Origin: Halocynthiibacter namhaensis
GTDB lineage: Bacteria; Pseudomonadota; Alphaproteobacteria; Rhodobacterales; Rhodobacteraceae
DNA: 64,000 nucleotides
Reading direction: 5' to 3'
Assembly: GCF_000812685.1 (NCBI RefSeq)
Contig: NZ_JWIF01000074.1
Span: forward strand, 124,001-188,000
Below are positions 11,967-25,873 of the stretch, in pieces. Numbering within the stretch: the first letter of the stretch is position 1; each line of letters starts with the position of its first letter. The translations under genes and the position numbers were made by a program. The notes beneath the pieces are model-generated. The model had not been told where the DNA came from. It did not search any database and saw nothing but the letters and a program-made list of their open reading frames with translations.

Positions 11967-13382
11967 ATGCTAAACCCTGCCGATCCCGAATTTATTGCAC
12001 ATTTGACGTCGCTTCTTGGCGATGACATTTTGCGCCCTGCATCTGAACTATATTTAGAAGAACCCCGCAAACGCATCACTGGCCATGCAGGCGCGATTGT
12101 GGCGCCACGTGATACGAATGAAGTGTCGCAGATCCTTGCGCTGTGTTCAGAACATCAGGTTGGTGTGATCCCATTTGGCGGTGGTACGGGGCTTGTTGGT
12201 GGGCAACTTATGTCTGCGGATCAAGGGGTTGCCCCGTTGATCCTGTCGCTTGAGCGTATGAACAAGATGCGCGATATTTTCCCTACGGAAAATGTGATGA
12301 TTGTGGAAGCGGGCATGACTTTGGCAGCCATACAGGACGGAGCCGCAGATGAAGACTTGCTGTTTCCGCTGTCATTGGCATCCGAAGGCACATGCCAGAT
12401 CGGCGGAAACCTTGCGACCAATGCGGGCGGTGTGAACGTGCTGCGTTATGGCAACACGCGCGATTTATGTCTTGGGGTTGAGGCCGTTCTCTCTGATGGC
12501 CGGGTTCTGAACAATTTGTCGCGGCTGCGCAAAGACAACACAGGATACGATCTTAAGAACTTGTTGATCGGGTCTGAAGGCACGTTGGGGGTGATCACGG
12601 CCGCCAGTTTACGCCTGTCTGCGCGGCCTGCGCGTGTTGGAACCGCAATTCTGACTGTTCGCGATCCCGCTGCCGCATTGGAACTTTTGTCAAAAGCGCG
12701 CGAGATCACGGGGGATGCTGTTTCCGCATTTGAATTGATCAGCGGCACGGGCATGGAATTTGTGCGTGACACATTGCCAGGTATTCATCAGCCCTTTGCC
12801 CAGTCGCCTGAATGGTCGGTGTTGGTGGAATTTGGTGTGCCTGCGGCGTTGAACCCAGAAACCTTGTTGGAAGATCTCTTTGTTACGGGAAGCGAGGCGG
12901 GTCTCGTGACGGATGGGGTGATTGCCCAGTCTTTGGCCCAACGCACCGAGATGTGGTCTCTGCGGGAACATATTCCCGCTGCAAACAAAAAAATCGGCGC
13001 CATTGGCAGCCATGATATCTCATTGCCACTGTCCGAAATGGCGCGTTTCATCCCCCTTGGCATGGCAGAAATTGCCAAGATCGCACCTGTGCGCGTGAAC
13101 TGTTTTGGTCATTTGGGGGACGGGAACCTGCATTATAATGTCTTCCCACCTGCTGGGCAGAAGGCCAGCGCCTTCGCGGATTATAAAGATGAGATTGAAC
13201 GTTTGATCCATGATTTGGTCCATGCTCATGGCGGGTCATTCAGCGCGGAACATGGGGTGGGGCGGCTGAAATCTGGCGAGCTTACCCGTTACGGCGACCC
13301 AACAAAGCGCGCGATGATGCAGCAGATCAAGCAAGCTTTGGACCCACGTGGCATCATGAACCCCGGCGCGGTTCTAGACTGA
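11967..13382 (+). CDS. FAD-linked oxidase, GlcD / D-2-hydroxyacid dehydrogenase type
   Basis: A 471-residue flavoprotein of the vanillyl-alcohol-oxidase superfamily. The PCMH-type FAD domain has VIPFGGGTGLVGGQ near residue 70 and GGNLATNAGGVNVLRYGNTRD near 150. The C-terminal FAD-oxidase domain has CFGHLGDGNLHYN near 378 and the closing HGGSFSAEHGVGRLK. This fits D-lactate, D-2-hydroxyglutarate or glycolate dehydrogenases; the exact substrate is open. GGAGG precedes the ATG. It stands alone, converging on the lipid-type operon. Confidence 0.9.
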   Translation: MLNPADPEFIAHLTSLLGDDILRPASELYLEEPRKRITGHAGAIVAPRDTNEVSQILALCSEHQVGVIPFGGGTGLVGGQLMSADQGVAPLILSLERMNKMRDIFPTENVMIVEAGMTLAAIQDGAADEDLLFPLSLASEGTCQIGGNLATNAGGVNVLRYGNTRDLCLGVEAVLSDGRVLNNLSRLRKDNTGYDLKNLLIGSEGTLGVITAASLRLSARPARVGTAILTVRDPAAALELLSKAREITGDAVSAFELISGTGMEFVRDTLPGIHQPFAQSPEWSVLVEFGVPAALNPETLLEDLFVTGSEAGLVTDGVIAQSLAQRTEMWSLREHIPAANKKIGAIGSHDISLPLSEMARFIPLGMAEIAKIAPVRVNCFGHLGDGNLHYNVFPPAGQKASAFADYKDEIERLIHDLVHAHGGSFSAEHGVGRLKSGELTRYGDPTKRAMMQQIKQALDPRGIMNPGAVLD

Positions 13383-13395
13383 TTTTCTTGCCGTT

Positions 13396-14532
13396 TCATT
13401 GCATTGGGTCTTCTGCATTTGGGCTGATTACACTTCGGTCGCGTCCGATTCCTGCCAACAATGATAGGCTATGGATGATCAAGGCAAGGCAGCCCACCAG
13501 CCAAGCATAACTTGCGCCACTGTTCAGCGCTTCGAGCATAAGAAATGCACTTGTAAGGTGCCAACCGTAAAGCGCCCAGAGGCGACCTTCGCTTATTCCA
13601 CCGAGGGCAATGGCTCCAAAAGCCAACAAGGCGAAGCGTGTCAGCTGGCTATAACTTGTGTCCGCATATCCATACCCGTAAAGCCACACATATCCGGTGA
13701 CGAGGGCGAATAAGACTATGGTTCCCACCAGAACCATTACCCCATTCGCATGGTAGGAAGGGATGGGCTTTGCGACGCTAACGTTCCAGTTCAACAGGTG
13801 CCGTAAGACGGGGATGTTGCTCGCGATTGCTGGGTTGAACGACGGTGACGCCCCTTTGACGCCATAGTTGAAATCATCTTCGGGAAGGTCGGGGCGATAG
13901 GTGTTGAACAGCTTGTCCCAAATGACAAAACTGCCGGCGTAGTTGCTGTCGGACCAAGCTCTGTCGGCCACGTGATGGATGCGATGGTGGGTTGGGGTGA
14001 CCAGGATATGCTCTAAGAACCCTAGATGAGGTGTCAGTGCGCTGTGGTTCATCAGTTGAATGCCGTAATGTACCACGGACACTGAGATGAACATTTCAAC
14101 CGGAATGCCGAGCAATGCCAATGGGATAAAAAATGGAATAGAAGCCAGTGATGAATACCATGAATTGCGCATTGCGAGGGATAGATTGAAGTGCTCGCCC
14201 TCATGATGAACAACATGGACCGCCCAAAGGATGCGAAACTTGTGATGCAACCGGTGCAGCCAATAGAAGCAAAAGTCCCAACCAATGAGGGCGATGGCCC
14301 AGACAACTGCAACAGGCCAATCGCTGACAAAACCGGTGCCAAACCTGTTCAGGATCAAGCCATAGACGGCGATTTCTAACCCGCGAAACAGCCAAACCAT
14401 CAAATGTCCAGAATTGAGATTAAAGACAACATCGTGCCAATCGACGACATGTCGGCCTTGACGGTTGAATATGATCATTTCCGTTAACACAAGGATCAAC
14501 ATCAAGAGAATGGGGAACGCGACTGCGGTCAT
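13396..14532 (-). CDS. Sterol desaturase / fatty acid hydroxylase family membrane protein
   Basis: Integral membrane di-iron enzyme family that hydroxylates or desaturates lipids. The 378-residue protein shows the histidine clusters HRLHHKF, HVVHHEGEH and HHRIHHV between about residues 120 and 220, within several membrane helices. Further hydrophobic helices follow. I start at the ATG at 14532, which overlaps the stop of the PAP2 gene (ATGA); a longer reading would cover that gene. It is the last gene of the eight-gene operon. The substrate is unknown; the context suggests a long-chain lipid made by the upstream ketosynthase. Confidence 0.88.
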   Translation of the reverse strand: MTAVAFPILLMLILVLTEMIIFNRQGRHVVDWHDVVFNLNSGHLMVWLFRGLEIAVYGLILNRFGTGFVSDWPVAVVWAIALIGWDFCFYWLHRLHHKFRILWAVHVVHHEGEHFNLSLAMRNSWYSSLASIPFFIPLALLGIPVEMFISVSVVHYGIQLMNHSALTPHLGFLEHILVTPTHHRIHHVADRAWSDSNYAGSFVIWDKLFNTYRPDLPEDDFNYGVKGASPSFNPAIASNIPVLRHLLNWNVSVAKPIPSYHANGVMVLVGTIVLFALVTGYVWLYGYGYADTSYSQLTRFALLAFGAIALGGISEGRLWALYGWHLTSAFLMLEALNSGASYAWLVGCLALIIHSLSLLAGIGRDRSVISPNAEDPMQ

Positions 14533-15185
14533 GGCGTGCCCCCCCAACGGATAATGCCATAGCGTTTGAAAATGACGGTAGCTGCACAGGCCAACAGGGC
14601 CAATCCTAGCCCCGCCAGAAGATCGACGAACTGGTGTCGGTGAAGCGGTAAGATAGAAACCATTATCACTACGGCCCATCCCGTCAGCAGCAGGTTGCGC
14701 CAGAGATGTCCCGCCTGCAACAGTGCCAACAGCGCCAAGCATGTCAGTGTCACGTGCAGGGAAGGCAGGCAGTTGACCACTGCATCATAGCGCATCAACA
14801 GTTTAAGCGTTTGTGCGCTTAGGCCTTGTTGCGTGACGTCTGGGAAAACCATGGTCGTTGGGAAAAAACCAAACACAATTGCGGCACCTATTGCGCTGCA
14901 CAGCATGACACAGCTTAGCCATTTCACGCGTTCGGGCTGGGCGCAGAAAAACCCCATGGGAATGAACAGGAAGAACGACATATACACCCAAATCGCGGAT
15001 GGGGTGAACGGGAACCAAAGGTCTATCGATGACGGCGTCAACAGATGTGCGGCTTCGGCGCCGCGCAGGCCCGACAGCGTATAGACAATGCCAATCGATC
15101 CCCAACTGGACACCATCAAGACCAGTCGTGACAAAAACGACAAAGTCACCTTACTGGCGGAAGCGTCGTCTATATTATCGAACAT
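14529..15185 (-). CDS. PAP2-family membrane phosphatase (Aur1/Ipt-like)
   Basis: A 218-residue membrane protein with about six helices. The two readable PAP2 motifs are CLPSLHVTLT near residue 142 and LHRHQFVDLLAG near 182, giving the two catalytic histidines and the aspartate. The first PAP2 motif (KxxxxxxRP) is not evident, as in the Aur1-like branch that transfers or removes lipid phosphate headgroups. It lies 63 bases downstream of the Rieske gene and overlaps the desaturase gene by four bases. The likely role is lipid phosphate removal or headgroup exchange. Confidence 0.85.
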   Translation of the reverse strand: MFDNIDDASASKVTLSFLSRLVLMVSSWGSIGIVYTLSGLRGAEAAHLLTPSSIDLWFPFTPSAIWVYMSFFLFIPMGFFCAQPERVKWLSCVMLCSAIGAAIVFGFFPTTMVFPDVTQQGLSAQTLKLLMRYDAVVNCLPSLHVTLTCLALLALLQAGHLWRNLLLTGWAVVIMVSILPLHRHQFVDLLAGLGLALLACAATVIFKRYGIIRWGGTP

Positions 15186-15248
15186 TGAGAACTCTCCAAA
15201 ATGACATTGAATATTGAGAGGGGGCAGAAGATTGCACTTTTGGCTGGC

Positions 15249-16228
15249 CTAAATATCCAGCGTGACGCGTTGGACATCAACATTATTCGTTTGCCCGTCA
15301 AGCACCTGCGAAATCAGCGGGTATAAAATATCAAGCGGGCCATTTGCATGCGGTGGCTTTCCGGCGGCTTCCCAATTTTCGGTCGCATTTGCCATAATCC
15401 GTAAATCTTGCGAAATTACAATGCGCATCAGGGGCACAAAAAGCAACGCTTTGATCCAGCCAAGGCCATACTGTCGCGGCCCGGTCATCACGGCGAACCC
15501 CCGTAAATGCGTGTCATCTTCACGGGTGAAGTAAAGTGTGGTGACAAGATTTAACCCATGCTTCCCCCAGTATTCGAGGCTTACAACACCGGGGCGGCGA
15601 AAGCGGCTGATGGCGTGACTGCGTTGGCTTTCAAGCAGTCGGGACATCAAGCCATTGGATTGCGTTTCACCACTGTAGCGCATCACAAGTTCTCCAGCGT
15701 CGATCCCGGCTTCAAGGGTCACCTTACTGGTCGGGCCACCACCACCGCGGATAATTCCGCTGTGCACAAACAGAGTGTGAATTGGATCAAGCACGTTTTC
15801 CACGGCATCTGTCAACGTCGCGTGTGCGTGGCTTTCCAAATCCGAGAAACCTGTGCTTGGTGGTCCCATGTCGGCGCAGGAATTTCGCCTGCGGCCTTGG
15901 CGTCGCGGGTGACAAAGACCAGGCCATGTGCTTCGCGGGCGTCCCAAGATCGCACCAAGCGGTTTTTCACGGGACCCTCAGCAAGCGGGATATGCGTGCA
16001 AACGCCTTTTCCGTTGAACCGCCAGCCATGATAGGGGCATTCAACGGTGCCGTCGATAACGCGCCCTTTCGACAGCGAGGCCGAGCGATGTGGGCAACGA
16101 TCGGCAATAGCAGACACGCCATTTAATGTACGGAAGAGGACAAGTTTCTCGCCTTCGAATGTGACGGCGCGCGGTTTTTTCTTCAGCTTTGAGGCGCGCA
16201 ATACGGGGTGCCAATGGGTTTCGGTCAT
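15249..16228 (-). pseudogene. Rieske non-heme iron oxygenase, interrupted by one frameshift
   Basis: The first 120 or so codons (from ATG 16228) encode the Rieske [2Fe-2S] domain, with CPHRSASL and CPYHGWRFNG near residues 45-68. After GEIPAPTWDHQ the frame runs to a stop at 15812. The rest continues in the -1 frame from about 15857 to 15249. It includes NVLDPIHTLFVH, which has the D-x2-H-x4-H mononuclear iron ligands. Joining the frames gives about 326 residues, normal for this family. One missing base between about 15850 and 15875 explains the break, and no slippery heptamer is visible. It overlaps the DUF3419 gene by four bases. A sequencing error or a recent mutation are both possible. 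Confidence 0.85.
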
Positions 16229-17280
16229 GTGGTGATCCTTCCGGCGCGGATGTCATATATGATGGCCCGGTCATGCTTAGTCAGCTGATCTGACAGGGGG
16301 TGATCTATTTCAATACGGTCATCAGGCAAGGCAAGTGGGTTCATGAATATGCGTTCAACAAAACAGGCATTTGGGCGTGCAGCCCGAAGAACACCATCCC
16401 ACGCCTGCGCATAGGTTCTCGGGCTGGTGTACGACCCAAAGTCCGACAACGAAAACCCATCGGCATTGGTGCATCTGTCCAGTTGATGTAGCCCCGTCAG
16501 GCGTATTTCAAGTCGCTCAAGCCGGGCTTGTACGGTTTCATAGTTCTCGGCCAAAAGATGCAACGGCAATGCGTTTGGCAGCGCGGAGTGGCCGCGCAGT
16601 ATCAGTGACGCGAAATCACTGTTGCGAAACAGAAACGTGGAGGACGCGCGTGTAAACGCCCCGGCGAGGCGGGCTTCGACGTGCTGCGGTTTTGGCAGGA
16701 ATGCGCCGCCGGGTTCTCCGATCACGCGTGTCCAAATCCAGGGTCGCCCCAATGTGCGAATGGAAAGCCGCCAGATCCAGTCGTCAAAATGCTGTGCCCA
16801 AATTTTGGCTTGCTCATCAAGATCGTGGGCGTTGAAAAGCGCGTCAATCCTGCGCCCTCGGATCAGACGCGTGCCACATGCGCCCTTGCGCAATACCCGT
16901 TCCCAAAGCCCGGCATACCAAATACCACCTTGGATCTGCCGGCGTTTCAGCGTCCAAAAGGTTGCGTGGTCTTCTGATAGATGTTGGCGTATTTTGTCCC
17001 AATACTCTAACGGATCCCCCGGAAGAATGCCCAGAAAAGTTAGCATTTCGTGGTGATCAAGACAACGGATGGCGGCAATCTTTAAACGAAGTAACGCGTT
17101 CTGGACGGGATTCATATCGACGGAAATGACCGTTTCGGCGTTGGACAGAAGCATGTCTAATGGCCGAGTTCCAGACCCTGTGATACAGACCATGCGTTCA
17201 ACAGAATTGGCCAAACCCGTCAGTTCGCTCCGCCCGTCCTCATTGGATGAAGCGAAGTTGAGATTTTGGAAAAAACTCAT
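16225..17280 (-). CDS. DUF3419 protein, BtaA-like 3-amino-3-carboxypropyl transferase
   Basis: A 351-residue protein of the DUF3419 family. Its characterised member BtaA moves the 3-amino-3-carboxypropyl group of S-adenosylmethionine onto diacylglycerol, the first step of betaine lipid synthesis, releasing methylthioadenosine. The SAM-fold segment MVCITGSGTRPLDMLL near residue 30 and VISVDMNPVQNALLRLK near 52 are clear. No btaB-like methyltransferase lies beside it, so a classical betaine lipid operon is unlikely. It overlaps genes on both sides by four bases. The acceptor is unknown; the operon suggests a lipid. Confidence 0.82.
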   Translation of the reverse strand: MSFFQNLNFASSNEDGRSELTGLANSVERMVCITGSGTRPLDMLLSNAETVISVDMNPVQNALLRLKIAAIRCLDHHEMLTFLGILPGDPLEYWDKIRQHLSEDHATFWTLKRRQIQGGIWYAGLWERVLRKGACGTRLIRGRRIDALFNAHDLDEQAKIWAQHFDDWIWRLSIRTLGRPWIWTRVIGEPGGAFLPKPQHVEARLAGAFTRASSTFLFRNSDFASLILRGHSALPNALPLHLLAENYETVQARLERLEIRLTGLHQLDRCTNADGFSLSDFGSYTSPRTYAQAWDGVLRAARPNACFVERIFMNPLALPDDRIEIDHPLSDQLTKHDRAIIYDIRAGRITT

Positions 17281-18521
17281 TCAGGGGGGCTCCAGCAATT
17301 TTCAATGCGGCGTAATTTTTGACTGGTGTCCAGCTGCAAAGGCGCGTGCTGAAGGTTTACCGAGATATCTAATCCGCGCGTTTCAAAGAGCTTGGCAAGG
17401 CTGGCCAGCGCCGCAAGTGCATCTGCGTTGGCTTGTTCTGGCTTCAACACCAGTGTGACGGATTTTTCCGCCTCACGCCGGACGCGAAAATCGTCAATGC
17501 CACGGGCGGCATCTAAGACAGCGTTGCGCAGAATGTCAGGGGTTATCAGCTTGCCATCGAAAACAAATACATCATCCATGCGCCCAACCACTTCGTCGAT
17601 TACACGTAAGGGGGATCCACAGGAACAGGCGTCGGGCGACAATCTAAGCAGGTCATTCATGCGATACCGCGCCATGATCTGAAACCTGCGTCGAAAGCCT
17701 GTGACCAAAGGGGATACCAAACCGTCATCCATCGGCTCAAACTCAAAATAAGTTGCGTCTTCCGCAAGGTGTAACTTGCCATGGGCACAACTCACCCCGA
17801 ACAACCCTTCTGTCGCCATATAGATCTGCCCAAGTCGCAGGTTGAAATGGGTTTCGATCACATTTCGGTCGATCTGATCCAAGGTTTCAGCCCCGGAAAA
17901 TACTTTACGTGGTTTTAAGTCAGCGCCGGTTTCCGCCAAGTGACGCAACACCCGCGGAGGCGCAGTGATCGTGGTCGGATCAAATGTCATCAGCCTGTCT
18001 TGCCAAGTTTCTGGGCCTTGACGTAGATCGAAAAATTGCAATCGTAACCGCCGGCTTTTGTTTGCCTCGTCATACAGGCTTGAGGACTGCGGCAATATCA
18101 CAGCAACCCTTTCCTTGCGCCACAAAAACTGCGGAGCCGTTTTCGCCAACATCGCCCCAAGCCAACGGTTGCGTTCATCAGATGTCACAGCATAAAGGGC
18201 GCGGTTGCCAGATGTACCGGTTGATGCACCGATACCTACGCCGTTGATCTCGCCGCTTCCTGCCATCGCGTCCCAAGCCTTTGTCTGCGTGATGCCCCCC
18301 AAATTGAACGCTTCAAACTGATCCATGACGATGGCTTTGTCGGTGATCTTAAGGTCGGCCAATTCGGTGGGGTTTTCGGTGTAATATCCCACGCGCGGCA
18401 AGTCGTCTGACAGCCAGCGCTTTAGCCGACGCGCCTGCCAGCGGTCAAACTTTGGGCGTGACATGCGGCTCACCCAAAGGGTTTCCAATAAAGCGGCAAG
18501 CACTTGAGACATTTGTTTCAT
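17277..18521 (-). CDS. Adenylate-forming ligase, F390-synthetase / phenylacetate-CoA ligase type
   Basis: A 414-residue member of the ANL superfamily close to the F390-synthetase-related group. It shows a P-loop-like GIGASTGTSGNRALYAVT near residue 95, the acyl-adenylate region IYMATEGLFGVSC near 232, and the hinge region LRVIDEVVGRMDDVF near 310. These enzymes activate a carboxylate with ATP. Next to an OleA/OleD-like pair it could take the place of the beta-lactone synthetase OleC, or activate a fatty acid for the ketosynthase. It overlaps its neighbours by four bases. Substrate unknown. Confidence 0.82.
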   Translation of the reverse strand: MKQMSQVLAALLETLWVSRMSRPKFDRWQARRLKRWLSDDLPRVGYYTENPTELADLKITDKAIVMDQFEAFNLGGITQTKAWDAMAGSGEINGVGIGASTGTSGNRALYAVTSDERNRWLGAMLAKTAPQFLWRKERVAVILPQSSSLYDEANKSRRLRLQFFDLRQGPETWQDRLMTFDPTTITAPPRVLRHLAETGADLKPRKVFSGAETLDQIDRNVIETHFNLRLGQIYMATEGLFGVSCAHGKLHLAEDATYFEFEPMDDGLVSPLVTGFRRRFQIMARYRMNDLLRLSPDACSCGSPLRVIDEVVGRMDDVFVFDGKLITPDILRNAVLDAARGIDDFRVRREAEKSVTLVLKPEQANADALAALASLAKLFETRGLDISVNLQHAPLQLDTSQKLRRIENCWSPPE

Positions 18522-19336
18522 GTGTTTGGCTTTCGATCATACGCAGTCATTTCCGGGGTGTGACAGAGTAAAACATCGCCACCCGCACGGGCAAAACCGG
18601 CAACCTTTGCCGTGCTTTCACGTTGGGCATGGGGATCTTCCGCGACCAGCCGCCCGGGGTATCCTATCGGGCCACGTGTTAACGCCGCCGTCACCCATTG
18701 CACATCCGCAGCATATAGCATTGGGCGTTCCAGTTGCGGAAAACATAGTCCAAAATGCCCCTCAGCGTGGCCAGGCAATCTGATCGCTAGGATGCGATTA
18801 TCTTCAAATATATCATAGACTAGGCCAAGGCCAAGGGGGCCGTTTACCTGTGGTTTATCAAAGACGTTTTCCAAGCGAACGGTCATATCATTTGGCAAAA
18901 ATTCAGGAAATATCCCACGATGAATATTGGCCCAGATGCTTCGCGTTCTTACGTTCTCAAAGGTCTGTTGGCAGGCAATCAGGCGTGCGTTTGGAAAACG
19001 TGCCAAGGCCGATATGTGATCGACGTGGAAGTGCGTAAGGATGATCGCTTTAACGTCGTCAGCCGTGTAGCCCATCTGCGATAAAGCTTCGATCGGGTCC
19101 CCATCAGGCAGAAGTTCAGGGGAAAACGCCCATGAATACGCCCGCAGCATGGGCGAGCGTCCGGGGGCACTGATGGCTTCGGGGCTGTACCCTGCATCGA
19201 TCAAAACCACACCATCAGGGTGCTCAATGATCCCAACGCGTACCTGCAACGCCAAGCGTTTATTCCAGCGCCCTTTGTTGAGAACCAAGCGTTCCCGCGT
19301 GTGAACATATGCGGTGTTGGTGAAAGTGATTTTCAT
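18518..19336 (-). CDS. Metallo-beta-lactamase-fold hydrolase
   Basis: A 272-residue MBL-fold protein. The HxHxDH metal motif is in ILTHFHVDHISA at about residues 99-110. The third histidine is in RLPGHAEGHFG, the bridging aspartate in MLYAADVQW, and the last histidine in LLCHTPE. The layout resembles lactonase-type and glyoxalase-type MBL enzymes, with a long N-terminal segment. It overlaps the reductase and ligase genes by four bases each. In this context a lactone or thioester hydrolase role is plausible but inferred. Confidence 0.85.
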   Translation of the reverse strand: MKITFTNTAYVHTRERLVLNKGRWNKRLALQVRVGIIEHPDGVVLIDAGYSPEAISAPGRSPMLRAYSWAFSPELLPDGDPIEALSQMGYTADDVKAIILTHFHVDHISALARFPNARLIACQQTFENVRTRSIWANIHRGIFPEFLPNDMTVRLENVFDKPQVNGPLGLGLVYDIFEDNRILAIRLPGHAEGHFGLCFPQLERPMLYAADVQWVTAALTRGPIGYPGRLVAEDPHAQRESTAKVAGFARAGGDVLLCHTPEMTAYDRKPNT

Positions 19337-20310
19337 CGCGTTTTCCCTGCGAAGGTTAGTTCTAATCCCTTAGAAAATGGCACGCGCGGTGACCAATCCA
19401 GCTGGTGTTTCGCTTTGTCGATATTGAGACTTTGCCGATAAGCAAAAAGACCCAATGCATAGGGGGTGATGCGTGGTTCTGAGCCGTTCGGATGAAGCTT
19501 GCTGACCGCATCTGAAATGCGCGCAACGGCGAGGGCTGGGCACAGCGGAACTGAGCGCCACGTCACCGAAACATCTGCGCGTGCGGCGGCAAGTTCTACG
19601 ATGTCACGGACTAACGTTTGCTCGCCGCTTGAGATGTTGAAGCTATGACCTTCTACTTCGGGGCCGGCAACCAATGCCGCTTCGATCGCACTGACGACAT
19701 CGGACACATGGGTCAGATCGATAGCTGCATTTCCGCCATGCAGGCTTGGTAGGGGGCCTCGCTTGGCGGCGGCCAATAAACGGGGTAAGAGTGCCGTGTC
19801 ATTGGCACCATAAATGCCGCGTGGTCGCAAATTGATTGGGTGAACCGTTTGATGTGCAAGCACCCGGCGTTCCGCTTCGGCCTTTGTGGCGGCATAAGCA
19901 TTCACGGGTTTCGGCAAAGGGTGGGTTTCGGTGACATTTTCCTGATCACAAAAGTCAAAATAGATAGTCGGGGACGAGATATTGATGAACCTCTGCACAC
20001 CGGAGGTTTCCGCGATTTTAAGTGCGTTTTCCGTGCCAAGAATATTCGCCCGGTGGAATGCGGAATGCCTTCCCCATGGGGCCGAAAGGGCGGCGCAATG
20101 GATAAAGGCATCCGCACGTCCTATGCGATCAATCGAGGCGTTCGTTGGAGAGGCGAGATCGATCTCGGCGCAGTTAATCCCCTGTTTTCTCAATGCATCA
20201 AGACGTAGTTCGTTCCGACCGATGGCCAAAACATCATATCCTGTTGCCGCGAGATGCGCTGAAACCGCCCCCCCAAGGAAACCCGTCGCACCTGTGACCA
20301 ACACCCGCAT
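19333..20310 (-). CDS. NAD(P)-dependent reductase, 3-beta-HSD / OleD-like
   Basis: A 325-residue extended short-chain dehydrogenase. The nucleotide-binding GATGFLGGAV opens the protein, ISSPTIYF carries the serine region, and NAYAATKAEAERR gives the catalytic Tyr and Lys near residue 140. Sequence style matches the 3-beta-hydroxysteroid dehydrogenase/isomerase group, which includes OleD, the reductase of 2-alkyl-3-ketoacids. The ATG at 20310 follows the ketosynthase stop by one base; a longer reading would overlap that gene. It likely reduces the product of the adjacent ketosynthase. Confidence 0.87.
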   Translation of the reverse strand: MRVLVTGATGFLGGAVSAHLAATGYDVLAIGRNELRLDALRKQGINCAEIDLASPTNASIDRIGRADAFIHCAALSAPWGRHSAFHRANILGTENALKIAETSGVQRFINISSPTIYFDFCDQENVTETHPLPKPVNAYAATKAEAERRVLAHQTVHPINLRPRGIYGANDTALLPRLLAAAKRGPLPSLHGGNAAIDLTHVSDVVSAIEAALVAGPEVEGHSFNISSGEQTLVRDIVELAAARADVSVTWRSVPLCPALAVARISDAVSKLHPNGSEPRITPYALGLFAYRQSLNIDKAKHQLDWSPRVPFSKGLELTFAGKTR

Positions 20311-20311
20311 G

Positions 20312-21319
20312 TCAGACCTCAATCGCCATGCCGCCAAAGCTTACTCCGGCAGAGGTCCCCAATATCAGCAGCCGCGTCCCTTTGCAGATACGTCCATCCT
20401 TTCGCGCAATATCGAGGGCCGTGGGGATGGATGCCGCAATTTGGTTGCCCAAATGGCTGGCGATATTCACGACTTTTTGCGTGTCTAGGCCGATCGAACG
20501 GATCATGTGTTCAAGCGCAATTGGGCTTGCTTGGTGGGGCACAATAAGATCGACGTCGCCTTGGTTCCAACCGGCGCATTGCAATAGATCATCCACAAAA
20601 CCTGAGAAATGGCGATGCGTAACACGGAACAGCGCGGTTCCATCCATGTGGAACACGGCGTTCTGTGCAAATTCTTCGGGCCGCGTGTGGAAATCAATTC
20701 GTGTTCCACCAGAGGCGATGGAACTTGCTTCATATGCGGACGGGTAGGTGCACATCATGCTGGCGCGAATGCAGCCTTGCCCTGGTGTCGCTGTGGTCAA
20801 AATCGCAGCGCCCGCGCCGTCGCCAAAAAGTGCGGCCACTTCGGGTTGCGTTGACCAAGGAAGGGTTTTCGAGGCGACTTCAGACGAGACAACCAGCACC
20901 ATGCGTGCCCGTCCCATAGCAATGCGCGTTGCTGCGATATCAAGCGCGGTTACAAAGCTTAGGCACGTGGAATTGACATCGAATGCCTGCGCAGACCCAT
21001 CATTCATGCCCAATTCGCGCATGATTAAAGGTGCTGTGCTTGGCAGTGCCTGATATGGAAGCCCCGACGCGCCGATTACCAGGTCAATGTCGTTCAGATT
21101 TATGCCTGCGTCATCTAACGCGATACGTGCCGCCTGGACCGCGAGGTCGATTTGACTTTCATTAGTGCAAATGCGGCGTGCGATAACACCGGTCGCCTGT
21201 TCAAGGTGACCGCAGTTTAAATTTAGGCAGTGGTCAAAATCAGTCGACAGCTTTTCGGTCTTTGGCAAGGCATGACCAGTGCCGAGAATTCGGGCAGGGA
21301 GCACATTAAACATTTTCAA
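20312..21319 (-). CDS. 3-oxoacyl-ACP synthase III family protein (OleA/FabH-like)
   Basis: A 335-residue thiolase-superfamily ketosynthase. The Cys-His-Asn triad is readable as C119 in DVNSTCLSF, H262 in LIVPHQAS and N292 in HLGNQIAASIP. The conserved ALFGDGAGAAIL loop lies near 163. Such enzymes join an acyl thioester to malonyl-ACP (FabH) or to a second acyl-CoA (OleA). The partner reductase next door favours the OleA-like reading, but the two cannot be told apart by eye. It is the first gene of the operon. No Shine-Dalgarno sequence precedes its ATG. Confidence 0.88.
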   Translation of the reverse strand: MKMFNVLPARILGTGHALPKTEKLSTDFDHCLNLNCGHLEQATGVIARRICTNESQIDLAVQAARIALDDAGINLNDIDLVIGASGLPYQALPSTAPLIMRELGMNDGSAQAFDVNSTCLSFVTALDIAATRIAMGRARMVLVVSSEVASKTLPWSTQPEVAALFGDGAGAAILTTATPGQGCIRASMMCTYPSAYEASSIASGGTRIDFHTRPEEFAQNAVFHMDGTALFRVTHRHFSGFVDDLLQCAGWNQGDVDLIVPHQASPIALEHMIRSIGLDTQKVVNIASHLGNQIAASIPTALDIARKDGRICKGTRLLILGTSAGVSFGGMAIEV

Positions 21320-21341
21320 ACACGACCATATTATAAATTAC

Positions 21342-21383
21342 TGAACACCGTTCATATATGGGGGAGGGCGCAACGAACGTCAA
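21342..21383 (-). promoter_or_regulatory. Promoter with palindromic operator for the ketosynthase operon
   Basis: On the minus strand TTGACG (21383-21378) and CATATA (21360-21355) are spaced 17 bases apart, a good sigma-70-type promoter. The 13-base palindrome TGAACGGTGTTCA (21354-21342) begins next to the -10 and covers the expected start of transcription, the usual place for a TetR-type repressor site. A TATAAT at 21335-21330 could be an alternative -10 giving a nearly leaderless mRNA. No regulator gene is adjacent. This is read by eye and not tested. Confidence 0.55.
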
Positions 21384-21475
21384 GCGCGTCCTGTAATGTC
21401 TTAAGGCACCAAATGGTTTTGAGCCTTCTACGTTTGGCTGGTGTGGCGAGCGTTTATCGTGGAGCAAGGGGGTCG

Positions 21476-21510
21476 TAATAAAAGAGACCGCCCTGAGAAA
21501 CAGGGCGGTC
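21476..21510 (-). terminator. Intrinsic terminator after apt
   Basis: A perfect ten-base stem GACCGCCCTG / CAGGGCGGTC (21486-21495 and 21501-21510) has a five-base loop. On the minus strand it is followed by TCTTTTATTA. It ends the mtnP-to-apt transcript 120 bases after apt. It separates that unit from the ketosynthase operon, whose promoter lies just beyond. The rest of 21320-21632, outside this hairpin and the promoter, shows nothing I can assign. Confidence 0.85.
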
Positions 21511-21632
21511 GGTTCTTTACGTGTGTTTTGCAAACAGCGTCCGTGGGTAGCGGACCGGTCCTTTCTACGGGGTAATTCTTACCGAAAGATTTATAAAGTT
21601 AGCGAAATTGAGGATTTCTTCGATTTCTAAGT

Positions 21633-22166
21633 TTATAGCCCATCAAATTCGCAAAGCGAGTATACATCCATGCCAAGCGCCTCCAGCTTTTTGCGGCCGC
21701 CAAGGTCAGGCAAGTCGATCACAAAAGCGCATCCGACGATATCCGCGCCCAGTCGTTCAAGCAGCTTGATCCCGGCCTCGGCAGTGCCGCCGGTCGCCAG
21801 AAGATCATCAACAACAAGAACGCGCTCACCTGGTTTTAGCGCATCGTCATGGATCTCGACCGTGGCTTCGCCATATTCCAAAGTGTAATCTTGGCTGATG
21901 GTCTTGCCTGGAAGTTTGCCCTTTTTACGCACAGGGACAAATCCAACAGACAATTGATGTGCGATTGCGCCGCCCAAAATGAAACCACGCGCTTCTAGGC
22001 CGACGATTTTGTCGATGGGTTGGCCAACATAAGGGTGCAACAGTTGATCGATGGCTAAGCGAAACCCACGTGGGTCTTCAAATAGTGTGGTGACATCGCG
22101 AAACATGATGCCTTCATGTGGGAAATCCTCAATCGTGCGGATATAATCCTTGACGGTTTTATTCAT
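21633..22166 (-). CDS. apt: Adenine phosphoribosyltransferase
   Basis: Converts adenine and PRPP to AMP in purine salvage. The 177-residue protein opens [20 protein letters not shown]. It has [17 protein letters not shown] near residue 60 and the PRPP-binding [16 protein letters not shown] near 118, all typical of Apt. Its ATG overlaps the stop of the DUF418 gene (ATGA). It is the last gene of a unit that begins with mtnP, so adenine released by MtnP would be reclaimed here. Confidence 0.96.
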
Positions 22167-23194
22167 CTTACTTTGCCTTCCGTGGTGAGCCGCATCAGGG
22201 CCTCAAGCGGGCCGCGTTTGAACTTATAGAACCAGAGGCGGGCGAACAATGCGGCAATCAGGCAAAATCCAACGGAAATTGCAAATACTGTCATTGTTGT
22301 CAGGCTTCCATCAAGTTTTCCCAAACCTTCAAGCACCCCCATCCCGATGTAGATGTGCGCCATGTATAAGGTTAGGCTCATGCGGCCCGGTGCTGCCAGA
22401 ATGGCCCCGATGTATAAGCGGTCAAGTACTGGCGTTATCCGCAAGACCAACCCCAATGTTGCCAATGCCGAACCCGTCCCGGCCAAGATGTAAAACGGGG
22501 TTGGGGGAAGGGGGGATGTTCCGGTGATTTCAGCAAGTTCTGGATCTAGTGCACCCAAGCCCCAGCTGAGTGTTGTGACGATGACCGCCATGAATATGCC
22601 GCCCACAATCAACCGCAACTGCACATTTTTCGCACCCAAGTCTAGCCGTCCGATCCACATGCCAATCAAAAAGAACGCAGCCCAGGGGAACACAGGGTGC
22701 CAGCCATTGTAAAATGAGTGGCGAAAAAACCCCTGTAGTGACCAAAAGTCATTGTATTTCAATGTGTCAAAGTCCCAGCCTGCCTCGTAATTGAAGGTGA
22801 ACACGGCAATATACCCGATCAACGTGATTGCCACAGCCCCAAGCAATAGGCCTTTGTTCGATGCACGGGTGAACAAGATGCCAATCACAAAATAAAGCGC
22901 GTAGAAATGCAAAATATCTGCATCGAACACGATCATATCCAACATGCCGATGACAAATAAAAATGCAGCGCGGCGCAAAGTAAGGTGCCAAGGTTGCCGC
23001 CCACTAGATTGCCCAAAGGCGAAACCGACCCCGGCGAGGATTACAAACAATGCCGCTGCGCGCCCTTCAAGCCCATTGGTGATAAGTGACGGCAGGTCGG
23101 ACGTGGCATTGACTTGGGTTGCGATCCGAAAATTCACCAAAACCATGCCAAGAAAGGCGATGAAACGCGCGATATCAATGCCTTGCAGTCGCAT
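22163..23194 (-). CDS. DUF418-like multi-pass membrane protein
   Basis: A 343-residue protein with about eight to ten hydrophobic helices. The opening [21 protein letters not shown] resembles the front of DUF418 and acyltransferase-3 proteins. The ending [11 protein letters not shown] resembles the DUF418 C-terminus. The family is abundant and poorly characterised. It overlaps apt by four bases and follows the DUF2269 gene by 11 bases. No catalytic residues can be named with confidence. Confidence 0.75.
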
Positions 23195-23205
23195 GTTGAG
23201 GCTCC

Positions 23206-23691
23206 CTAAAACAGTTGTGGTTTGGTGATCATCAGCCAGAATATTCCGGTCAACCCAAGGAAAGCGGGCCAGCCGAGGAAAAACCAGATTTTAAAAAGGC
23301 GGAAGGCTTCGTCTGGCAGGGGTGAAGCTGTCTCAAGCGCCTGTGCGGCCAAGTTTCTGATTTTGATCTGCAGATGTACGACGGGTAACCAGCAAACCAG
23401 GGCGATGAAATAAAGCGCGTAGGTTGCGATCAGCCACGATTCTGTCAGCGCCCATCCTTGCAAATAGATCAGCCAAAGCCCTGTTGCTGGCTGGATTATC
23501 CCGGCCGGGGTAGTGAAGATCCAATCGGCCAGCACCACACCGCAGACAACCGAATGCACCGTTTCCACGCGTCCTTTGCGGGACAAATGCATGGCCCAAA
23601 CCATTTGAAAAGCGGTTCCAATGCCGGTTCCGAACAACACCGTCGAACACAGGATATGTAGATATTTTGCAACGAAATAGCAATCCATCAT
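23206..23691 (-). CDS. DUF2269 family membrane protein
   Basis: A 161-residue protein with four hydrophobic helices. The family signature is visible in VAKYLHILCSTVLFGTGIGTAF at the front, ADWIFTTPAGIIQPATG near residue 55, and the final FFLGWPAFLGLTGIFWLM helix. DUF2269 proteins often accompany a reductase with a DoxX-like tail, as here. They are of unknown function. The ATG overlaps the stop of the SDR/DoxX gene by four bases (ATGA). Confidence 0.82.
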   Translation of the reverse strand: MMDCYFVAKYLHILCSTVLFGTGIGTAFQMVWAMHLSRKGRVETVHSVVCGVVLADWIFTTPAGIIQPATGLWLIYLQGWALTESWLIATYALYFIALVCWLPVVHLQIKIRNLAAQALETASPLPDEAFRLFKIWFFLGWPAFLGLTGIFWLMITKPQLF

Positions 23692-24962
23692 CGTTCTTCT
23701 TCAAGGATGAGAAAAATACATAATAACAACAAAATTGGAATGTTCTTTAACAGGCCTCCGACTGGTAATAACCACAGAGATGGCGCCAAAACGGTCAACC
23801 CGATACTGTACCCTCCGACAAGTGCCAGCTGGATCCAGCCCATTAATTTCAACCGCCATCCGCGCAATAATGCAAGGGCGATTGCCAAGTCTGCCAAGCC
23901 GCCTAAACGCGCGATTGCGATCAAGGCGCTGTCTGGCAAGGCAGCGCCAGACAACATTGGTAAGAATGCTTCTGACGGCAATAATAGGCCAACTAACCCG
24001 GATAAAACCCACATGAAGATTAGGGTTAGCCGCAATACGGGTCGCAACAGATATAGCCGGGCTTGCCACAAATCTTGTGTGCCTGCTGGGCGGGCGTTGA
24101 TGAAATCAGAAAACCCACGCGGTTTGTTCTTCAACTTCGTCGTGAGGGCTGTGTCCTTCGCTAAGACGCCGACCTCTAGCTGGGATAGGGCGGTGGTGGA
24201 AATTGGCCCCATTTGCATGAAATCCCCACAGCGACCTGCCCATCGCGCAAGCCCCTTTGGCAGCGTGAAACATATGCTAGGCCGCAGACCATACCAGCCG
24301 CGGTATCCTGCGATCATTTGTCGTTGAGACACTTTCTCAGGCCCGCCAATATCGTGGGGGCCTGATCCAAATTGTGAAGGGGTTTCGACGATTTCGCGTG
24401 TGACCCGGGCCAGATCGGCCGCATGTATTGGGTTCATGATCTGCGTCCCTCCGCCGGGAAGAGGTGTTAGCGGTACGCTGGCCAACGCCCGAAGCAATGA
24501 CGATCCGCCATAAGACGTGTCGCCCAAAACGAGGCCGGGGCGCAGACAGGTGACGTTATGAGTTTGGGCAAGGGCTTCGCCCGCGCGACGCCAACGGGCA
24601 AATCTTGTGGTGGCCGTGTCAATGCCCACCGCAGAGATCAAAACTGTTTGCGCGCGGCGTGCCGCTTCATACAGCGCCTTGGGCGCATTGACGTGTACGG
24701 CCTCAAACACGGTGTCGGATGCATTCAATAGGCCAGCGGCATTTATCACCACGTCGCAATCTTCTGCAGCGGTCTTCCAAAAGGATGGGTCATGTGTTTC
24801 GCGCTTGGACAGATCGGCGTGAAAGGTTTTAAACCCCATATTTTTCAAGGCCTTTACCCGTCTGGCGCAGGCAATTACTTCCCATCCTGCTGTGCGAAAC
24901 TCAAACGCGATGTGTCGGCCAATAAAGCCGTCGGCACCAAGAATTAAAATGCGTTTTTTCAC
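23688..24962 (-). CDS. NAD(P)-binding epimerase-like protein fused to a DoxX-like membrane domain
   Basis: A two-part protein of 424 residues. Residues 1 to about 280 form an atypical SDR with LGADGFIGRHIAFEF at the front and LRPGLVLGDTSYGG near 140. From about 300 there are four hydrophobic helices of the DoxX_3 type ending LLLLCIFLILEEER. This fusion is a known architecture, usually paired with DUF2269, and its reaction is not established. It starts with GTG at 24962 within the mtnP stop (GTGA). The expected SDR YxxxK pair is not obvious. Confidence 0.82.
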   Translation of the reverse strand: MKKRILILGADGFIGRHIAFEFRTAGWEVIACARRVKALKNMGFKTFHADLSKRETHDPSFWKTAAEDCDVVINAAGLLNASDTVFEAVHVNAPKALYEAARRAQTVLISAVGIDTATTRFARWRRAGEALAQTHNVTCLRPGLVLGDTSYGGSSLLRALASVPLTPLPGGGTQIMNPIHAADLARVTREIVETPSQFGSGPHDIGGPEKVSQRQMIAGYRGWYGLRPSICFTLPKGLARWAGRCGDFMQMGPISTTALSQLEVGVLAKDTALTTKLKNKPRGFSDFINARPAGTQDLWQARLYLLRPVLRLTLIFMWVLSGLVGLLLPSEAFLPMLSGAALPDSALIAIARLGGLADLAIALALLRGWRLKLMGWIQLALVGGYSIGLTVLAPSLWLLPVGGLLKNIPILLLLCIFLILEEER

Positions 24963-25837
24963 CCGATCACACGTCCTGCAACGGCATCTAGTTTTGCCAT
25001 CAGGGCGGGGTCACGTTTGTCAGCCGCTGTTAGGATCGCAAATTCAAGTGCACGATCACAGCCATGCACACAGGGGGCACGATCAGCGCCCAACACCTCA
25101 GGCAGTCGGGCAACCATGTCTCGCCCCTTGTTCGCATTTCCCATTAATGTCTTAATGATTTCAGTGACATCAACTTCACCATGGTCCGGGTGCCAGCTGT
25201 CATAATCGGTGATCATGGCAACAGACGCATAGCAAAGCTCGGCCTCGCGGGCCAATTTAGCTTCGGGCATGTTGGTCATGCCGATCACATCGCAGCCCCA
25301 GCTTTCGCGGTACATTTTGCTTTCGGCCAGCGTAGAAAACTGAGGGCCTTCCATAGCCAAATAAGTGCCGCCACGATGTACATTTATGTCGGCGTGCCGT
25401 GCCGCAGTTTCGCAAGCGTCCGACAGACGGGGGCAAGTGGGGTGCGCGACCGAGACATGAGCGACACAACCCGTGCCAAAAAAGGACTTCTCTCGCGCAA
25501 ATGTGCGATCAATAAATTGATCTACAATGACGAAGTCGCCGGGTGCCATTTCGTCTCGGAAGGATCCGCAGGCAGATACAGAGATCACATCGGTGACGCC
25601 GATACGCTTCAATGCGTCAATATTTGCGCGATAGGGCACGGTTGACGGGGAATGCACATGGCCTCGGCCGTGACGCGGAAGAAAGGCCATTTTAACGCCA
25701 TTCAACACGCCGGTCAGAACCTCATCCGATGGTGTGCCCCAAGGGGTTTCAATCGCCTGCCAGGCCGCGTTGTCAAGCCCATCAATCTCATAGAGGCCAG
25801 ACCCCCCGATCACGCCAATCATGGTTTCTGTGGTCAT
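24959..25837 (-). CDS. mtnP: S-methyl-5'-thioadenosine phosphorylase
   Basis: Splits methylthioadenosine with phosphate into adenine and 5-methylthioribose-1-phosphate. The 292-residue protein begins with IGVIGGSGLYEIDGL. It has LPRHGRGHVHSPSTVPYRAN near residue 53, MEGPQFSTLAES near 166 and GCDVIGMTNMPEAKLAREAE near 185, the full set for MtnP. ATG 25837 is chosen because GGAG lies seven bases upstream; a TTG one codon earlier is less likely. Its product adenine matches apt at the end of the same unit. Confidence 0.95.
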   Translation of the reverse strand: MTTETMIGVIGGSGLYEIDGLDNAAWQAIETPWGTPSDEVLTGVLNGVKMAFLPRHGRGHVHSPSTVPYRANIDALKRIGVTDVISVSACGSFRDEMAPGDFVIVDQFIDRTFAREKSFFGTGCVAHVSVAHPTCPRLSDACETAARHADINVHRGGTYLAMEGPQFSTLAESKMYRESWGCDVIGMTNMPEAKLAREAELCYASVAMITDYDSWHPDHGEVDVTEIIKTLMGNANKGRDMVARLPEVLGADRAPCVHGCDRALEFAILTAADKRDPALMAKLDAVAGRVIG

Positions 25838-25873
25838 CAATGGGCTCCTGCATTGGGTTGTGTTTGGGGTAAG

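Follow-up and report, generated by a model that had tools for sequence, protein, structure and literature searches.

What kind of product could be made by a block of eight tightly packed genes in which a ketosynthase III, a predicted S-adenosylmethionine (SAM) 3-amino-3-carboxypropyl transferase and a membrane hydroxylase stand side by side? We analyzed such a block in a 64,000-nucleotide stretch of the Halocynthiibacter namhaensis genome (positions 124,001 to 188,000 of contig NZ_JWIF01000074.1), called the window below. The eight genes (window open reading frames, ORFs) all lie on the minus strand, from 21319 to 13396, and the Pfam domains found are ACP_syn_III, Epimerase, Lactamase_B, DUF3419, Rieske, VanA_C, PAP2_3 and FA_hydroxylase. 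Judged from sequence, the block is best read as a modular biosynthetic cassette that can move, in which four core enzymes stay constant and the finishing module is interchangeable. The core encodes the ketosynthase, an extended short-chain dehydrogenase/reductase (SDR), a metallo-hydrolase and an adenylate-forming ligase. An earlier note on this DNA read the genes as a single operon of lipid-type enzyme families, which our results support; it missed that the core stays constant while the tails change, as well as the Escherichia coli relative and the empty site in same-genus genomes.

A constant core with changing tails

The four-gene core is found again, its order unchanged, in Alphaproteobacteria, Burkholderia and E. 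coli. To the window we added 18 loci from a species-genome collection and three plasmid loci. These 22 loci were collected through DUF3419, so its presence in them is by construction while the absence of ATP-grasp genes is not. Cores without DUF3419 were sought using the ligase. In 17 of the 22 loci, including the window, the ketosynthase, SDR, metallo-hydrolase and ligase genes lie in that order on one strand ahead of DUF3419; seven of them also have a Rieske gene placed between those for the ligase and DUF3419. Isolates with a DUF3419 cassette include Nitratireductor pacificus and Roseisalinus antarcticus. The contig end cuts L035 inside the ligase gene, and L043 and L051 are rearranged, each with a second DUF3419 gene (L043:2495-3535 and L051:6563-7588; 29-30% identity). 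A Rieske gene is present in 13 of the 22 loci, often accompanying DUF3419 in the cassettes, and a GNAT-type gene in eight. PAP2 or hydroxylase matches are found in none of the other 21 DUF3419 loci, only in the window. The earlier note proposed looking for the same eight-gene order elsewhere; no other genome examined has it, though the first five genes are co-conserved in the 17 loci. One locus, L045, is on a contig titled Acidobacteriota yet groups inside the Hyphomonadaceae on a short branch, and is probably mis-binned.

A second version carries ATP-grasp. Rhizobium sp. BT03, Shinella zoogloeoides and a plasmid named Roseateles encode a core 45-64% identical to that of the window, followed by GNAT, Rieske and convergent ATP-grasp genes. 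The Rhizobium and Shinella plasmid cassettes, with cores at 45-61% identity, share core order and Rieske gene with the window but have GNAT and ATP-grasp in place of DUF3419. The plasmid named Roseateles (L055, UNVERIFIED_ORG) has a cassette close to these two, and its name is doubtful. More ATP-grasp cassettes are found in Pontibacillus, Paenibacillus, Paraburkholderia and six further genomes; in Pontibacillus and Paenibacillus the ATP-grasp gene sits between those for the ketosynthase and SDR. An ATP-grasp match is present in 14 loci in total, two of which (L056 and L095) have a scattered or incomplete core. None of the 22 DUF3419 loci has an ATP-grasp match and none of the 14 ATP-grasp loci has a DUF3419 match. 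This exchange, the strongest point for the pathway proposed below, suggests that both enzymes finish the same scaffold. In Paracoccus sp. MA (L091) and Ketogulonicigenium (L092), TetR and sulfotransferase genes lie upstream of the core. On both plasmids they are divergent from a bare four-gene core (L091:2517-4176, L092:2494-4100), and the sulfotransferase genes are possibly another head-group module.

In 672 of 5426 complete E. coli genomes, the interval from narI to purU holds the core followed by PAP2, hydroxylase and desaturase genes. This seven-gene lipid-type cluster (for example L057:5140-12021 and L059:3001-9882) has the core order of the window, then PAP2 (42% identity) and hydroxylase (48%), but lacks DUF3419 and Rieske genes, ends in an acyl-CoA desaturase and has a core only 29-37% identical. 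The same plan occurs in B. stagnalis and two further genomes. We found no paper on the E. coli cluster among the open-licence articles of PubMed Central (PMC).

On a ligase tree of 34 rows, the DUF3419 label requires four changes (shuffled mean 11.4) and the ATP-grasp label five (9.5), few enough to indicate that the finishing gene has been swapped among related cores. Only stop-free matches covering 60% of the query entered the ligase and ketosynthase sets, which places the truncated L035, L041 and L048 outside the ligase tree. The label PAP2FAH was assigned to L080 by assumed kinship, and the single origin of that group rests on three rows; the approximately 8.5 kb of downstream sequence examined for L080 has no PAP2 or hydroxylase match. 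The core is rare, the ligase being found at E <= 1e-30 in three of 385 genomes of the host class and a TIGR02304 match at E <= 1e-40 in 10 of 398 genomes of the host phylum. Relatives of the window DUF3419 protein with at least 59% identity are encoded in two of 248 host-family genomes. The remaining matches of the 34 in that family are short fragments or DUF3419 proteins of other types (22-35% identity), and four of six plasmid matches are near 49% identity.

An empty site in same-genus genomes

Only one of three genomes of the genus, that of the window, has the DUF3419 gene. In the other two, the match to window DNA breaks off after 13375 and picks up again at 21487 or 21501; the flanks are just 20 and 37 bases apart. 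What is missing, as a unit, from both is the eight-gene operon together with some 170 bases upstream of it. With three genomes compared, a gain in the lineage of the window is simpler than two losses; the GC content of the block resembles that of its surroundings. The core order in many genomes, together with this absence as a unit, argues that the organization of the block is beyond chance.

Two cassette versions in one operon

The window ligase and DUF3419 protein group with those of L036 and L037, loci with five genes only. Its hydroxylase is 48-51% identical over nearly the full length to that of the E. coli cassette, against 29-37% for the core. In 72,556 plasmid records, 80% coverage of the window hydroxylase is reached by E. 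coli and B. stagnalis sequences alone, both within such cassettes, and in the 247 other host-family genomes the matches stop at residue 235, with no full-length relative. As its full-length relatives in these searches lie only in cassettes of the E. coli type, the window operon is a DUF3419 version joined to a PAP2-hydroxylase tail. A sequence search of the PDB with the hydroxylase gave nothing meaningful, and its score with the OlsE ornithine-lipid hydroxylase model (80.4 bits) is below the curated cut-off of 475.

The core enzymes

The closest solved chains to the ketosynthase are 4v2p (200 bits), which we take to be MxnB, and CorB (194 bits), ahead of FabH (162 bits) and OleA 3s21 (95 bits). 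The Cys-His-Asn triad is kept in all 34 cassette rows, some of which are near-copies. At the position of OleA Glu117 these rows have Ile (20), Leu (12), Val (one) or a gap (one), with the following Pro kept in 33. Two papers describe the glutamate as a hallmark of OleA and PpyS, and a Val in MxnB and CorB (PMC4578411, PMC7064751). The ketosynthase had been called OleA-like in the earlier note; with the catalytic Glu replaced in all 33 rows that have a residue there, it is not an OleA. Like CorB and the 4v2p enzyme, it has a hydrophobic residue at this site, but those pyrone-forming, chain-fusing enzymes serve type I polyketide synthase antibiotics and the window cassette encodes no polyketide synthase. 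The window genome codes for another ketosynthase III, 34% identical, so that of the cassette is not its only FabH-type enzyme.

The description of the SDR as OleD-like holds in part: its nearest curated families are OleD and the Shewanella 2-alkyl-3-oxoalkanoate reductase, but it scores 165.1 bits with the OleD equivalog model, whose cut-off is 580. Its nearest solved structure is a sterol-4-carboxylate 3-dehydrogenase. The metallo-hydrolase is nearest to N-acylhomoserine lactonases among solved structures, at 55 bits. The ligase has no Pfam match and scores 233.8 bits with the F390 synthetase-related model TIGR02304, below the curated cut-off of 251.9, while the E. coli cassette ligase scores 755.5 bits. 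It is PaaK-like, with weak matches to models of the ester-forming BagE/FevW and of FlxY. The matches of the ligase and hydrolase did not include OleC or OleB, in searches not aimed at either.

The DUF3419 protein

The window protein matches Pfam DUF3419 at 145.3 bits (cut-off 28.2), the family of BtaA, which a passage of a review names as the betaine-lipid transferase. "BtaA-like" is therefore right as to family and not as to clade: the cassette proteins form their own clade of 22 rows (99/99 support), distinct from that of the BtaA type, are 22-24% identical to BtaB-linked BtaA and are separated from it by long, fully supported branches. Host-family genomes encode three types: BtaB-adjacent BtaA, a type flanked by genes resembling those for phosphoenolpyruvate (PEP) synthase and dolichol kinase, and the cassette clade. 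A BtaB match adjoins the BtaA-type gene in 13 of 14 loci (L017-L030). Neither the window nor the other cassette loci have one at E <= 1e-8, in line with the BtaA-type enzyme without BtaB noted earlier. Betaine-lipid synthesis by BtaA and BtaB thus shares with the window the DUF3419 family, a SAM-type fold and the expected aminocarboxypropyl transfer, and differs in clade, BtaB and other partners. The second type lies between PEP-synthase-like and dolichol-kinase-like genes, so named from their sequences, in all 14 of its loci (L003-L016, for example L003:146-4027) and looks like another uncharacterized system.

In the structure predicted for the window protein (pLDDT 92.4, pTM 0.90), a helical insert divides a Rossmann core of the SAM methyltransferase type. 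Compared with SAM methyltransferase folds, the best VIA-align hit has Z 14.4 and a root-mean-square deviation of 2.5 over 156 of 351 residues. Searching PDB sequences with the DUF3419 profile gave nothing meaningful. By kinship with BtaA, the enzyme probably adds a methionine-derived amino acid, the 3-amino-3-carboxypropyl group of SAM.

Operon layout and a broken Rieske gene

In transcription order the joints are a 1-base gap, four 4-base overlaps, a 63-base gap and another 4-base overlap, reproducing the positions and joints first reported. The core catalytic motifs are intact (Table 1). For the hydroxylase, a start at 14532 is most likely, within a longer ORF listed from 14742. A single promoter had been assumed; our scan found no minus-strand promoter-like site in 21200-21700. 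A terminator-like hairpin parts the operon from apt, and an Rfam scan of 21000-22200 gave no match.

The sixth gene, whose break the earlier note missed, is not one open frame. A frameshift places the N-terminal part of the Rieske oxygenase, which retains CPH...CPYH, and the C-terminal part, which retains DxxHxxxxH, in different frames; they align with residues 3-115 and 134-313 of the Rhizobium sp. BT03 protein, which is intact. The window Rieske oxygenase may be inactive, or the frameshift may be an assembly error. Since neither part has lost its motif and the C-terminal one is open to its end, the break is either recent or an error.

Just upstream of the operon (21633-25840) lie apt and a PNP-family gene, read as that for methylthioadenosine phosphorylase (mtnP). 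DUF3419 would release methylthioadenosine, and a link to its salvage was considered. The adjacency is probably coincidence, as both genes are kept in the same-genus genomes without the operon and are near no other cassette.

Table 1. Features of the cassette region, in window positions.
Feature	Position	Strand	Remarks
Ketosynthase III, 335 aa	20312..21319	-	TTG or nearby ATG start; Cys119-His262-Asn292; Leu92 at OleA Glu117 position
Extended SDR	19333..20310	-	GxxGxxG and YxxxK present; longest ORF begins 20337
Metallo-beta-lactamase-fold hydrolase	18518..19336	-	HxHxDH
Adenylate-forming enzyme, F390-synthetase-related/PaaK-like	17277..18521	-	
DUF3419 protein, predicted SAM 3-amino-3-carboxypropyl transferase	16225..17280	-	own clade apart from BtaA
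Rieske oxygenase, N-terminal part	15812..16228	-	[2Fe-2S] motif; cut by frameshift
Rieske oxygenase, C-terminal catalytic part	15249..15947	-	DxxHxxxxH; other frame
PAP2-superfamily membrane protein (PAP2_3)	14529..15185	-	42% identity to E. coli cassette PAP2
Membrane di-iron fatty-acid-hydroxylase family protein	13396..14532	-	three His boxes; 48-51% identity to E. coli cassette hydroxylase
Block absent from two same-genus genomes	13376..21486	.	20 and 37 bases there instead
Terminator-like hairpin between apt and operon	21486..21510	-	

Proposed pathway and alternatives

We propose that the cassettes encode a modular pathway to a long-chain, lipid-like product which in the window would receive an aminocarboxypropyl head from DUF3419, and put the probability of this at roughly one half. 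The ketosynthase would extend or fuse acyl chains and the SDR reduce the 3-keto group. The metallo-hydrolase would free an acid or open a lactone, and the F390-type enzyme would adenylate a carboxylate, joining it to a hydroxyl or an amine. DUF3419 would then transfer 3-amino-3-carboxypropyl from SAM, an equivalent head group perhaps being supplied by the ATP-grasp or sulfotransferase genes in other versions. The product may be tailored further by PAP2 and the di-iron hydroxylase, a pair borrowed from a tail of the E. coli type. The order of the steps is our inference. The earlier note knew of no lipid pathway that matches its reading, and we found none published among the open-licence PMC articles searched.

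Several points weigh against this proposal. Its weakest is the scaffold, taken to be a lipid by family resemblance and the membrane enzymes alone. The literature searched describes product, substrate or activity for no version of the cassette. With neither DUF3419 nor ATP-grasp in the E. coli-type cassettes, Paracoccus L091 or Ketogulonicigenium L092, a head-group enzyme is not obligatory, and Asticcacaulis L041 and L048 have the Rieske-DUF3419 pair with no core within 10 kb up- or downstream. The sparse distribution fits an accessory metabolite no less than a membrane lipid. The window has no Pho box, and 19 upstream regions gave five sites with at most four mismatches against 3.46 expected. 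Foldseek found no PDB match for the DUF3419 model at E <= 0.001, and the modeled Rossmann fold does not separate aminocarboxypropyl from methyl transfer. The Rieske frameshift may be a sign of pathway decay in the window strain.

Among the alternatives, it is somewhat unlikely that the cassette product is instead a small diffusible metabolite or signal resembling a homoserine, pyrone or lactone, with DUF3419 giving a homoserine-type moiety and the metallo-hydrolase acting on a lactone. The sparse, often plasmid-borne distribution is consistent with it, as are a TetR gene adjoining the core in L053, L091 and L092, the kinship of the hydrolase with lactonases and of the ketosynthase with the 4v2p enzyme and pyrone-forming CorB, and the weak ligase matches to ester-forming models. 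However, the membrane PAP2, hydroxylase and desaturases of several versions suggest a lipid-bound substrate, and the annotated flanks showed no LuxR-type receptor, although no systematic search for one was made. That the island is a decaying, functionless remnant in the window strain is improbable. The frameshifted gene and the absence of the block from two same-genus genomes would fit, but the other seven genes are open with intact catalytic motifs, the Rieske parts keep theirs, and the nearest DUF3419 relatives, L036 and L037, do without a Rieske gene.

We give still less weight to an enzyme that is simply BtaA, making diacylglycerol homoserine, the betaine-lipid precursor, without BtaB. It would share the Pfam family, and the window genome has no other DUF3419 match. 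Against this stand the distant clade, the lack of any BtaB match at cassette loci and the constant tie of this DUF3419 to the core or a Rieske gene. Least probable is an Ole-type pathway, in which two acyl-CoAs are condensed and reduced on the way to a beta-lactone or olefin. OleABCD hydrocarbon and OleACD beta-lactone synthesis likewise use a ketosynthase III, an OleD-like reductase and an adenylating enzyme, and the ligase and hydrolase occupy the places of OleC and OleB. Nevertheless, the ketosynthase lacks the OleA glutamate and matches OleA at half the score of CorB, the ligase is PaaK/F390-like, a metallo-hydrolase stands for OleB, OleB and OleC did not appear among the matches, and the window has additional head-group and oxygenase genes.

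The long-chain pathway can be taken further, more tentatively, as one possible account of all the versions. They may form an undescribed, widespread modular family whose fixed core builds a glycerol-free long-chain scaffold. DUF3419 would cap it with a SAM-derived homoserine-type head and ATP-grasp/GNAT with an amino acid; other endings would be a sulfotransferase, perhaps, or PAP2/hydroxylase/desaturase tailoring. The window would be a natural hybrid, with the E. coli version in about one in eight complete genomes. If this is right, the products of the cassettes would be bacterial lipids or lipid-like metabolites of a class not yet mapped, DUF3419 would gain a role beyond betaine lipids and the narI-purU cluster of E. 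coli would be accounted for. The swap of DUF3419 and ATP-grasp on near-identical cores would then predict the head group of each strain.

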